Position numbers and translations under genes: made by a program | Assembly: GCA_026388665.1 (NCBI GenBank) | Contig: JAPLJJ010000234.1 | Coordinates: forward strand, 1 to 55,465 | Direction: 5' to 3' | Length of the DNA stretch: 55,465 nt | DNA from: Deltaproteobacteria bacterium | Lineage (GTDB): Bacteria; Desulfobacterota; Desulfomonilia; Desulfomonilales; Desulfomonilaceae | Notes under the pieces: model-generated | What the model saw: the letters and a program-made list of their open reading frames with translations, nothing else | Databases searched by the model: none | Told to the model about the DNA's origin: nothing | In this document: positions 3,751 to 19,107 of the stretch, one piece after another | How the letters are laid out: each line of letters starts with the position of its first letter | How positions within the stretch are numbered: the stretch's first letter is position 1

Positions 3751-3762
3751 ATGGAGGTGATC

Positions 3763-4992
3763 ATGGGACGCAAGAGCTTAAAAGTCGTGGCAATCGTTTT
3801 GGCGCTTCTTTTAACCGGAGCGCTCTTAACCACCGGTAGTTCTTTCGCCGGCGACACAATCAAAATTGGCCTCGTCGCCGACATAACAGGAATCGCCAAC
3901 GCAATTTATAAAGGCCAAAAAGCCGGCATGGAACTCTTCATAGAAGAGGTCAACGCCAAGGGTGGTGTGCTCGGTAAGAAGTTGGAACTGGTCACCCGCG
4001 ACGCCCAGCTCAAGCCTGATGTCGGCGCGAATGCTGCCAGGGAGCTGATCCTGAGCGAAAAATGCGACTTCCTGTTCGGTGGGACCAGCACCGGTGTGGG
4101 GCTGGCCTTGACCAGGATCGCACATGAATTTAAGAAAATTATCTGCTTTCATACTTGCAATGGGGAGGCATTGACGACTACCGATTTTCAACCTTACATG
4201 TTTCAGGTGGTTCCCAATACAGGGATAGAGGGGCGTGGAATTGCGCTGTTTCTCTCGCAGAAACCATACAAGCGGTACAGTTTTATCGGTCCTGATTACT
4301 CTTACGGTCACACCCAATGGAACGCTTTCAAAGAAGATCTTACCAAACTAAAACCGGACGTGGAAATCCTTGATGCTGTTTGGGTTAAGGTGGGTGAACC
4401 TAACTATGTGTCCTATATTCCATCCCTTATGGCGAACAACCCTGAAATTATTTACAGTAGCCTCTGGGGAGGCGGGCTCAGCAGCTTTATCAAGCAGGCT
4501 AAGCCGTATGGGCTTTTCAAGAAGTCCAGCGTCACATCACTCTATGACTTGACCATGCTCAAAGCATGCGGACTAGAGATGCCCGAAGGACTATTGGGAT
4601 ATACCCGATGCCCATTCTACGCGGTTGATACGCCGGAAATGAAAGCGTTCGCTAAGAAATTCTACGAAAAATACGAGGAATGGCCCGATGACTGGGCTAT
4701 TTTCTGTTACGACGGTCTCACCGTGCTCACTGATGCCATCAGGAAAGCCAATAGTACTGACTCGGATCAGCTAGTGAAGGTTATTGAGGGGCTGCATTAC
4801 AAATCTTTGACCGGAGATCGGTATATCCGACCGGAAGATCACCAGGCCAATGTAGGGATTTACGTAGGATATACAGGAAAGGATCCCAGGTTTAAGGAAT
4901 TTCTTATTCTAAAGGATGTAGAGGAAGTGCCTGCTGAAAAAGTCTGGCTACCTGTGGAAGAGGTGAAGAAGTTACAAGCCGGGAAAAAGTAA
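3763..4992 (+). CDS. Branched-chain amino acid-type ABC transporter substrate-binding protein
   Basis: Periplasmic binding protein of the LivK / Peripla_BP_6 type, 409 aa. A signal peptide (MGRKSLKVVAIVLALLLTGA... with SFA before the cleavage point) is followed by IKIGLVADITGIANAIYKGQ and GMELFIEEVNAKGGVLGKKL, the family's N-terminal lobe. The frame is also open to an ATG at 3751, but that codon overlaps the strong Shine-Dalgarno GGAGGTGAT at 3754-3762, so the ATG at 3763 is preferred. No permease or ATPase genes are near; it must work with transport parts encoded elsewhere. Relatives bind amino acids, amides or aromatic acids; the CoA ligase next door suggests an organic acid ligand, an inference. 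Confidence 0.9.
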   Translation: MGRKSLKVVAIVLALLLTGALLTTGSSFAGDTIKIGLVADITGIANAIYKGQKAGMELFIEEVNAKGGVLGKKLELVTRDAQLKPDVGANAARELILSEKCDFLFGGTSTGVGLALTRIAHEFKKIICFHTCNGEALTTTDFQPYMFQVVPNTGIEGRGIALFLSQKPYKRYSFIGPDYSYGHTQWNAFKEDLTKLKPDVEILDAVWVKVGEPNYVSYIPSLMANNPEIIYSSLWGGGLSSFIKQAKPYGLFKKSSVTSLYDLTMLKACGLEMPEGLLGYTRCPFYAVDTPEMKAFAKKFYEKYEEWPDDWAIFCYDGLTVLTDAIRKANSTDSDQLVKVIEGLHYKSLTGDRYIRPEDHQANVGIYVGYTGKDPRFKEFLILKDVEEVPAEKVWLPVEEVKKLQAGKK

Positions 4993-5075: not shown

Positions 5076-6715
5076 ATGAACATCGGGACATTACCGACCC
5101 GGCAGGCTCGGTGGCGGCCCGACCACCTCGCAGTTGTTTTTGAACACCACCGTCTCACGAGTAGGGAGTTCAATCAGCGCGTCAATCGATTGGCGAACGC
5201 GTTCCTGAATCTAGGGATTACTAAAGGCGATAAGATTGCTACAATATTGCCGAATTCTTTGGAACTATTGGAAACCTATTGGGCGGTGGCCAAGATCGGT
5301 GCGGTGGTTGTTCCTCTGAGCCCGCTGACACGCGGGAAAGGACTGACCACAATGCTAAACGACTCAGATGCGGTTTGCGTGATTACCGATTCCGCGTTTG
5401 TGGAACATCTGAATCCCGTCCGCTCGGACCTGAGCATTCCTTCAGGTCGATACCTCATCATTAATGAAGCAAACACTCCTGGCTATGAGGATTATCATGC
5501 GCTGACCGACGCCGCAAGCGACCGCGAGCCAGAGGGGATCGACATTGACGCCGACGACCCCTACAACATTATGTACACTAGCGGCACCACTGGTCAGCCC
5601 AAGGGGATCGTTCATAGCCACTATGTCCGAGCGATGTACGGTATGCTTATGGCATCGGCTTTTCGCTTCACACCTGAAAGCATTGTCCTGCACGCAGGCG
5701 CCGTGGTTTTCAACGGCTCGTTTGTAACTCTGATGCCGGCCTTTTTTCTGGGAGCCACATATATTCTACAGGGGCAGTTTAACCCGGAAAAATTTATCGA
5801 GTGCATCGCACGCGAGCAAGTGACACATATGATCCTGGTACCGTCCCAGATAGTCGCAATCATGCATGCGCCCAACTTCTCGGCTGAAGCGCTGCAATCG
5901 GTGGAGGTGCTCTGCACAGTGGGCGCCCCATTGCATCAAGAGCACAAAGACGAACTGAACCGCCGCCTATCGGGAATATTCTATGAACTGTACGGTCTGA
6001 CGGAAGGCTTCCTAACGATCCTCGACAAGACTCATTATGCGGCTAAGCCCTCCTCAGTGGGTGTGCCACCATGCTTTTTCGAAATGCGGATAGTAAACGA
6101 TAAAGGACAAGACGTGCCTGTCGGCGAGGTGGGCGAAATCATCGGCCGTGGCCCGATGCTCATGTGTGGGTATTACAAGCGCCCGGACCTGACCGCAAAA
6201 GCTATTGTTGACGGATGGTTGCATACCGGTGACATGGGATATGTTGACGCTGACGGCTTTTTGTATCTGGTGGACCGTAAAAAGGATCTAATAATCTCCG
6301 GCGGGTTGAACATCTATCCGAGGGACATAGAGGAGGTGGTCGTCCAGCATCCGGCGGTGTTAGAGACCGCTGTTTTTGGAATTCCCCACGAAAAATGGGG
6401 TGAGACTCCGGTGGCAGCCGTTGTATTGAAGCAAAGGAGGTGGTCGTCCAGCATCCGGCGGTGTTAGAGACCGCTGTTTTTGGAATTCCCCACGAAAAAT
6501 GGGGTGAGACTCCGGTGGCAGCCGTTGTATTGAAGCAAGCAGGAGCCGTCACCGCTGAAGAACTGCGAGAGTGGATTAACCAGCGAGTGGAGGCCCGGTA
6601 TCAGCGTATACACTCGGTTGTGATCGTGGACGATTTTCCGCGAAGTACGGCTGGCAAAACTCTGAAGCGAATACTTCGTGAGCCGTATTGGGCAGGCCGT
6701 TCTACGCGAATTTAG
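5076..6715 (+). pseudogene. Acyl/aryl-CoA ligase (AMP-binding) broken by a 104-bp tandem duplication
   Basis: An ANL-superfamily ligase activating a carboxylic acid with ATP and CoA. Seen: the P-loop YTSGTTGQPKG near residue 165, YGLTEG near 305, GWLHTGDMGYVDADG near 378 and DRKKDLIISGGLNIYPRDIE near 400. A strong Shine-Dalgarno (GGAGG) precedes the ATG. An exact 104-bp duplication (6331-6538) shifts the frame, so translation stops at 6467 after 463 residues. The lost C-terminal subdomain, with the catalytic Lys in PRSTAGKTLKR, is still readable in another frame to 6715. Removing one copy restores a 511-aa protein of normal length. The lesion is recent or an assembly artefact. Substrate unknown. 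Confidence 0.9.
6331..6538. repeat. Exact 104-bp tandem duplication
   Basis: Bases 6331-6434 and 6435-6538 are identical. Each begins AGGAGGTGGTCGTCC and ends TTGTATTGAAGCAA. The flanking bases differ, so the unit is exactly 104 bp. Since 104 is not a multiple of three, it disrupts the CoA ligase frame. Confidence 0.95.
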
Positions 6716-6800: not shown

Positions 6801-7223
6801 ATGATAGGAAAGACAATCCATGAACTTCACGTGGGTGATTCCGCAGAGTTCGCCAAGACAATATCTGAGTCCGATATTTATCTTTATGCAGGAATAACCG
6901 GTGATTTCAACCCTGCCCACGTCAACGAAGCATATGCACAGAAGACCTTTTTCAAGACCAGGATTGCCCACGGCATGCTGGTGGCCGGCTTTGTCTCGAC
7001 AGTCATGGCCAATAAGTTGCCCGGACCCGGCGCCATCTATATCAGGCAGGAACTGGATTTTGTAGCACCGCTACATATCGGTGACACCGTCACCGCCCGG
7101 GCTGAAGTGATTGAGATTATGGCTGACAAGAATCGGGTCAAGATCAAAACCACGTGTGTCAACCAGGATGGGGCCCTGGTTCTGAGTGGTGTGGCCATTG
7201 TAAGCCCTCCCAAGCCTTTGTAG
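6801..7223 (+). CDS. MaoC-like (R)-specific enoyl-CoA hydratase
   Basis: A 140-aa single hot-dog-fold protein like PhaJ. The catalytic motif of R-hydratases is visible as GITGDFNPAHVNEAYA (Asp and His near residues 35-40), followed by RIAHGMLVAGFVSTVMANKLPG, typical of the family. It would hydrate a trans-2-enoyl-CoA. GGAG lies six bases before the ATG. It sits 85 bp after the CoA ligase, suggesting a small acyl-CoA operon (ligase then hydratase). A role in fatty-acid or aromatic-acid breakdown is likely but not proven. Confidence 0.88.
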   Translation: MIGKTIHELHVGDSAEFAKTISESDIYLYAGITGDFNPAHVNEAYAQKTFFKTRIAHGMLVAGFVSTVMANKLPGPGAIYIRQELDFVAPLHIGDTVTARAEVIEIMADKNRVKIKTTCVNQDGALVLSGVAIVSPPKPL

Positions 7224-15881: not shown

Positions 15882-18800
15882 ATGAATCCTTCGTCTGCGC
15901 CTTACCAGCCCAGAAACCACATCAGAGTTGTCACAGCGGCTTCACTTTTTGATGGGCACGACGCCGCAATCAACATCATGCGCCGCATCCTCCAATCATC
16001 AGGGGCTGAGGTAATTCACCTCGGCCACAACAGGTCCGTCTCGGAAATCGTCAGCGCCGCTATCCAGGAAGATGCCCAAGCAATTGGAATCAGTTCCTAT
16101 CAGGGCGGGCACATGGAATTCTTCAAGTACATCGTCGACCTCCTTCGGGAGCATAACAGCTTACAGATCAAGGTATTTGGGGGCGGCGGCGGCGTAATCG
16201 TTCCGGAAGAGATTTCAGAACTGGAATCCTACGGGGTTACAAAGATCTTCAGCCCGGATGACGGACGAAAACTCGGGCTCCAGGGAATGATAGATGTATT
16301 TATCAAGCTTTCTGATTTCCCAGTGTCGGATGGTCGTCTAAGCATTGATCCGTCAAGTCTTGAACCCAAGAATTGGACGGCTATCGCGAAGCTGATATCC
16401 ACCGTGGAAGTGGCTAAGGAAAGTGGGAATGCTGAACTAGCCGAAATACGATCGCTCTTACGAGAAAGATTTTCAGATAGGATAGTTCCGGTACTCGGCA
16501 TTACCGGCACTGGCGGAGCGGGTAAGTCGTCTCTCACCGACGAAATAACCCTGCGATTCCTGAACGATCAGCCTGATAAGACCGTCGGAATTATATCGGT
16601 AGACCCGACTCGCCGAAAGACAGGCGGGGCGCTACTTGGGGACCGAATCAGAATGAACTCGATCCATACGGACAGGGTCTATTATCGGTCCATGGCAACC
16701 AGAAATCAGGGCTTGGAAGTCCCATCCCACATTGAAGAATCTATAGAGGTGCTGAAGGCCGCAGGTTTTGATCTTATAATTGTTGAAACAGCGGGTATAG
16801 GGCAGGGGGACGCTGCCATAGTGCCTCTTGTAGATGTTTCTCTTTATGTGATGACATCCGAGTTTGGTTCACAAAGTCAGCTAGAGAAGATCGATATGCT
16901 CGATTTCGCCGATCTTATGGCCATTAACAAGTTTGACAGGCAGGGATCAGAAGACGCGCTACATGATGTCAGAAAACAGGTTCAGCGTAATCGGCTCCGA
17001 TTTGACGTCCCTTTGGATGAATTGCCTGTTTACGGCACAATCGCCTCTCGATTCAATGACGATGGAGTCACATCTCTTTTTACGGGGATTATTGACGCCG
17101 TAAACCACAAGACAAGGTTGGGTTGGCAAACATCAATGACATCTACTCCCGACAAGAAACCATCATCCAGGACCATTATCATTCCGTCCGAAAGATCGGG
17201 GTATCTTTCCGAAATAGCCAATACCGTGCGGAAGTATCATGCGTGGGGGGCTGAACAGGAGCAATTGATTCGGCGGTTGTGGCGGTTGGACGCTGTAGAA
17301 AAAGAGTTCCGAACTGACAGTGTGAGCGAGGAATCAGAAGCCTTTTCCAGAATTAAAAAGCTGCAAGAGGAAATTGAAAAACAACTCGATTCACGGGCCC
17401 TGAGACTTGTTGGAGAATGGGACGACATCAAGGAAGCTTATTCCGGAGATGATTACGTTTTTTCCGTAAGAGGAAAAGACGTGCCGGTCAAACTTAAGAC
17501 CCGCACACTAAGTGGAACTCTATTACCTCGAATAGTTCTCCCCAAGTACGAAGATCCGGGGCAATTGCTTAGATGGCGCTTGAAGGAGAACCTGCCGGGC
17601 ATGTTCCCGTATACTGCCGGGGTGTTTCCATTTAAACGACAGGATGAAGACCCCACCCGCATGTTTGCCGGTGAAGGAGATCCTTTCAGGACAAACCGGA
17701 GATTTAAGTATCTATCGGCCAACAGTGTCGCAAAAAGGCTTTCCACAGCATTTGACTCAGTCACGCTTTATGGTCAGGATCCTGAAGAACGGCCCGACAT
17801 TTACGGTAAGATCGGCACTTCGGGTGTTTCGATATGCACCCTGGATGATGTTAAAGAGCTGTACTCAGGCTTTGACCTGAGCGCGCCCAACACTTCCGTT
17901 TCGATGACGATAAATGGTCCGGCCCCGATCATGCTTGCCATGTTTTTCAATGCGGCTATTGATCAGAAACTAGCTCAAATCAGGCAGGAAACTGGATCAG
18001 AGCCAACCCCCGAAGTTGTCTCCAGAACTAAAGCAGATGTGTTATGCAACGTCAGAGGCACAGTGCAGGCGGACATTCTCAAAGAGGACCAGGGCCAAAA
18101 CACATGCATCTTCTCAACCGACTTCTCATTAAGAATGATGGGTGACATTCAGGATTATTTCATTAGGAACAACGTCGGAAACTTTTATTCGGTTTCCATC
18201 TCGGGCTATCACATAGCGGAAGCCGGGGCTAATCCTATAACTCAGCTTGCGTTCACCCTGGCCAATGGGTTTACCTACGTCGAATACTATCTGTCCCGTG
18301 GTATGCATATCGACGATTTCGCTCCGAACCTGAGCTTCTTCTTCTCAAACGGACTTGAGCCTGAATATAGTGTCATCGGTAGAGTCGCCCGCAGGATCTG
18401 GGCGATCGCGATTCGAGATAAGTAGTCGGTCACTCCACGCTCAAGAGATTCAGTTTAACGATATCCGAACCACTCTTCAGGCGCTTATCGCTATCTACGA
18501 CAACTGTAACTCGCTTCATACAAACTCCTATGACGAGGCTATTACAACCCCGAGCGAGGAGTCTGTCCGCCGCGCTCTGGCAATTCAACTGATAATCAAC
18601 AAGGAGTGGGGCATTTCCAGAGTAGACAATATAAATCAGGGGTCTTTCTTAATGGAAGAACTCACTGATCTCGTGGAAAAAGCCGTGCTGCTGGAATTCG
18701 ATCGCCTGTCTCAGCGTGGTGGTGTCCTCGGCGCTATGGAGACAGGGTACCAAAGAACCAAGATTCAAGATGAATCGCTGTATTACGAAACACTTAAGTC

Positions 18801-19107
18801 AACTGGGGATTACCCCATAATAGGAGTGAATACATTCCTCAATCCGGATACAAGTTATGTCGAGCAGTGTGCCATAGAGTTGGCAAGAGGAACTGAAGAA
18901 GAAAAACAATCCCAGTTGACGCGTCTGGCTCAATTCAAAGAACGGAACAAAGACAAAGCTCCGCAGGCTAAAGAATGCCTCTATCGAGTCGCTCAGGCGG
19001 ACGCCAATATCTTTGAGGAACTAATGGAGACCGTCAAGTATTGTTCGTTAGGTGAGATCACTCAGACTCTTTACAGGACAGGGGGGCAATACCGCAGAAA
19101 CATGTAA
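15882..19107 (+). pseudogene. icmF: IcmF-type fused acyl-CoA mutase, interrupted by a deletion
   Basis: IcmF joins a B12 domain, a MeaB-like G-protein chaperone and the mutase barrel, and interconverts isobutyryl- and n-butyryl-CoA or related substrates. Seen in order: B12 domain (SLFDGHDAAINIMRR, residues ~20-150), GTPase with Walker A GTGGAGKSS (~207), then the barrel from ~560 (FPYTAGVFPF). The first frame ends after [11 protein letters not shown] at 18425. The rest ([13 protein letters not shown] to QYRRNM at 19107) is in another frame. About 50 nt around 18420 are missing, which removes the conserved YGANERSQ...HxQTSG stretch at the active site. Adding 50 nt gives ~1,091 aa, normal for IcmF. 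Inactive unless this is an assembly error. Confidence 0.88.

Follow-up and report, generated by a model that had tools for sequence, protein, structure and literature searches.

Does an exact tandem duplication that breaks the reading frame of an acyl-CoA ligase gene act as a genetic switch, is it a recent and functionless mutation, or was it introduced when the genome was assembled? The window, that is the whole stretch of 55,465 nucleotides analysed here, is the entire contig C159 of a metagenome-assembled genome from the Desulfomonile family (3.28 Mb in 303 contigs, 83% complete). All features located in it are listed in Table 1.

The duplication itself was examined with Tandem Repeats Finder, which reported at 6331-6538 an array of period 104 with 2.0 copies, 100% match and no indels. 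A preliminary description of this DNA had recorded identical copies placed head to tail, and had judged the event to be very recent unless it was an artefact of assembly. The first point is confirmed, and the choice between these alternatives was correctly drawn. An exact repeat of 104 bp cannot have arisen by chance. As the array comprises exactly 2.0 copies, zero bases are common beyond the copies at the junction. Replication slippage usually leaves short repeats at the junction; the motif AGGAG is present both at 6331 and near 6541, out of register with the junction. With no bases in common at the junction, slippage between flanking repeats was discarded as the probable source. Membership of a known tandem-repeat family, or a minisatellite, was likewise discarded, as the unit has no internal periodicity and there is no third copy.

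Table 1. Positions in the window of the duplication, of the deletion and of the two genes concerned.
Feature	Coordinates	Strand	Basis and remarks
Duplication copy 1	6331..6434	+	Exact 104-bp tandem repeat; 0 bp junction homology
Duplication copy 2	6435..6538	+	Exact 104-bp tandem repeat, head to tail with copy 1
Acyl-CoA ligase, upstream piece	5076..6467	+	ORF list, Pfam, 71-74% identity to intact family orthologues
Acyl-CoA ligase, downstream piece	6437..6712	+	Pfam PF13193, 68 bits; 75% identity to nearest orthologue
Fused methylmalonyl-CoA-mutase-type gene, upstream piece	15882..18425	+	Pfam: B12-binding, MeaB, first half of mutase domain
Deletion junction, ~50 bp missing, placed within a few bases	18424..18425		Alignment; net -50 in frame-break scan
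Fused mutase, downstream piece, other frame	18409..19107	+	Pfam PF01642, positions 294-509; residues 19-250 match relatives

The upstream piece of the ligase carries an AMP-binding domain (PF00501, 277 bits in Pfam), followed by an AMP-binding_C domain that is cut at position 38 of the 76 of the profile, the stop codon falling within copy 2 as had been described. The remainder of AMP-binding_C is found in the downstream frame, together with the conserved lysine motif PRSTAGKTLKR. This motif had been reported as lost; it does lie outside the interrupted ORF, but it is intact in the other frame. Both domains and the C-terminal lysine motif are present in the ligase, divided between two frames. 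The orthologues in relatives, of which the nearest belong to Desulfomonile genomes, are uninterrupted single frames of 507-581 aa from stop to stop. When the two pieces were aligned with the nearest orthologue, the upstream one reached residue 469 and the downstream one started at residue 433, meaning that the overlap corresponds to the duplicated part. Each piece is ~74-75% identical to this orthologue, and the downstream part shows no decay. The NCBIfam matches listed for the ligase fall below the cut-offs. The gene is preceded by a periplasmic binding protein gene (3751-4992) and followed by one for a MaoC-type dehydratase (6801-7223).

The preliminary description had gone further and proposed a reversible on/off switch, the second copy turning the ligase off and its loss by slippage turning it on again. 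Phase variation of this kind does call for a frame-breaking, exact tandem duplication such as the one seen here, and by arithmetic the removal of one copy would restore the frame. Reversible duplications in capsule genes, moreover, cause phase variation in the pneumococcus, according to the account of Waite (2001, 2003) cited in PMC4243769. At the present locus, however, the junction has 0 bp of homology and offers no direct repeats to drive recurrent duplication, and no relative examined has a duplication at this site, the orthologues examined being uninterrupted. The gene also encodes a metabolic ligase, with neither a surface nor a defence function, and the same type of duplication was found in housekeeping genes of this genome. 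Given that duplications of the same kind are present in unrelated genes and a deletion in the same window, as detailed below, the switch is unsupported, and we hold it to be very improbable.

When 975 kb of this genome were scanned, 8 exact two-copy tandem duplications were detected, with periods of 21, 22, 35, 38, 58, 63, 104 and 107 bp, all of them below 141 bp; none of the 8 had internal periodicity or a third copy. Applied to 713 kb drawn from four relatives in the family, the same scan yielded zero comparable duplications, a CRISPR-like array aside; in 529 kb of mixed genomes it yielded two cases, both of 21 bp. The excess corresponds to a binomial p of 0.012 against the relatives and 0.023 against all controls, for counts that are small and for control genomes whose assembly methods may have differed. 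Homology at the 8 junctions was 0, 0, 2, 0, 0, 0, 3 and 0 bp; its mean, 0.63 compared to 0.67 expected for random end joining, matches the chance level of blind end-to-end joining. Periods were not divisible by 3 in 6 of the 8 cases, which gives no sign of selection on the reading frame.

These duplications are spread over genes of very different kinds. The 58-bp one (L113 7828-7943, contig C150) shifts the end of purM, and this purM is the only one in the genome above the family cut-off. The 63-bp one (L135 13190-13315, contig C225) is in frame and adds 21 residues to a penicillin-binding protein, directly before its GSTFK motif; further proteins with a transpeptidase domain are encoded in the genome. 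The 21-bp one is located outside every ORF of at least 60 aa, and those remaining disrupt a STAS protein, an IS66 transposase, a DASS-family symporter and a ChaN-type protein. A diverged 108-bp repeat array, with shifts of 108, 216, 324 and 648, was also observed on contig C230 (L142 11900-16200). Unlike the exact two-copy events, this array looks natural and possibly belongs to a repeat protein.

The window holds an event of the opposite sign as well. Near 18424, ~50 bp that are present in 5 out of 5 aligned relatives are absent from the fused methylmalonyl-CoA-mutase-type gene. In relatives, same-genus genomes included, this gene is a single frame of ~1100 aa, with one exception where the frame is shorter; the order of its domains (B12-binding, MeaB, MM_CoA_mutase) is that of IcmF. 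A scan for frame breaks scored 3 distinct ones in 117 kb of the genome (+104, -50 and one +1) versus 0 in 118 kb of relatives, a comparison biased by the fact that relatives of the ligase and of the mutase had been fetched on purpose. The +1 break lies in a gene near a contig end, on C155 (L118 near 11620).

Exact overlaps of 141 bp were found at 4 pairs of contig ends of the same assembly. Such overlaps are expected from a short-read de Bruijn assembler with a last k of 141, and point to assembly of this type; 141 is the default last k of MEGAHIT. A lone run of 18 N, which could mark a gap in a scaffold or sequence that was withheld, was seen inside contig C75 (L162 600-617). As this is the only internal N-run seen, scaffolding is not otherwise evident, which speaks against the mis-join proposed below.

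Exact events without homology recur in unrelated genes of this assembly, and the sibling duplications, taken with the matching deletion, point to the assembly rather than to the ligase gene. We conclude that the 104-bp duplication is probably a zero-gap mis-join made during metagenome assembly, and absent from the organism. Two pieces sharing a true overlap of 104 bp, whether contig ends or a read pair, would have been abutted without a gap and their overlap left uncollapsed; such a join would reproduce the overlap as two identical adjacent copies in the same orientation, and would need no homology. If the same abutting error were applied to pieces separated by a true gap, a clean deletion would be produced. 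End-to-end placement that ignores the true distance would in this way account together for the duplications and the deletion, both devoid of junction homology. The joining step itself we infer; it could have been the joining of contig ends across a negative gap, or the concatenation of overlapping read pairs. No paper describing an assembler error of this abutting type was found in the literature searched. Low-coverage assemblies are known to inflate pseudogene counts (PMC11017572). Under a mis-join, the gene would most likely be an ordinary, intact acyl-CoA ligase gene beside that of a MaoC-type dehydratase.

The main rival to a mis-join is a real and very recent mutation, inactivating the ligase without any regulatory role and bound to be lost or to decay. 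The sequence is internally consistent, short tandem duplications do arise in bacteria, and a de Bruijn graph with k=141 is able to represent a real 104-bp duplication faithfully and could have passed it through, a counter-point that the mis-join has to face. The mutation would nevertheless have to belong to a burst of 8 exact, undiverged and homology-free events in less than 1 Mb, affecting purM and a penicillin-binding protein among others, with a 50-bp deletion added on the same contig. No Ku was found either in the genome itself (~83% complete) or in the six same-genus genomes searched, so that end-joining repair would have operated without visible machinery. For these reasons we regard a real mutation as unlikely. 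There is a slim chance that the events are all true and reflect a genome-wide burst, in this lineage, of homology-free short tandem duplications and deletions of 20-110 bp, without Ku, by which many genes would be reversibly silenced; an unusual mutational signature would then have been uncovered.

Finally, what the assembler took up may have been an allele of the minority, or a chimera formed in the DNA library, rare or absent in the cells. Either one would be expected to give the same exact joins devoid of homology as a computational mis-join, also spread over the genome, but a rare molecule would be outvoted at k=141 unless coverage was very low, and we see hardly any chance that the duplication arose in this manner.

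With a mis-join as the preferred reading, the locus would illustrate that what looks like a genetic switch can be produced by the assembly of a fragmented metagenome-derived genome. Exact duplications with chance-level junction homology, paired with clean deletions in conserved genes, form a signature that provides a simple check and could flag other such genomes before a biological meaning is given to their broken genes.

Compared with known systems, the ligase resembles the class I adenylate-forming acyl-CoA ligases (PF00501 and PF13193) by both its domains and its C-terminal lysine motif, the sole difference being the frame break. The closest true example of a switch is provided by the duplications in the pneumococcal capsule genes cap3A, cap8E and tts, for which the account cited in PMC4243769 (Waite 2001, 2003) describes sequence duplicated within the reading frame, with loss of gene function that is reversible. 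Phase variation of the capsule is reported there from experiments, whereas here the sequence is what was analysed, and the same type of event is scattered over housekeeping genes. Spurious pseudogenes created by assembly (PMC11017572) share with our case that intact, conserved genes look frameshifted, and that a surplus of broken genes marks a poor assembly. Frameshifts and internal stops are tallied in general in that work, whereas the pair of duplication and deletion observed here constitutes a more specific signature.
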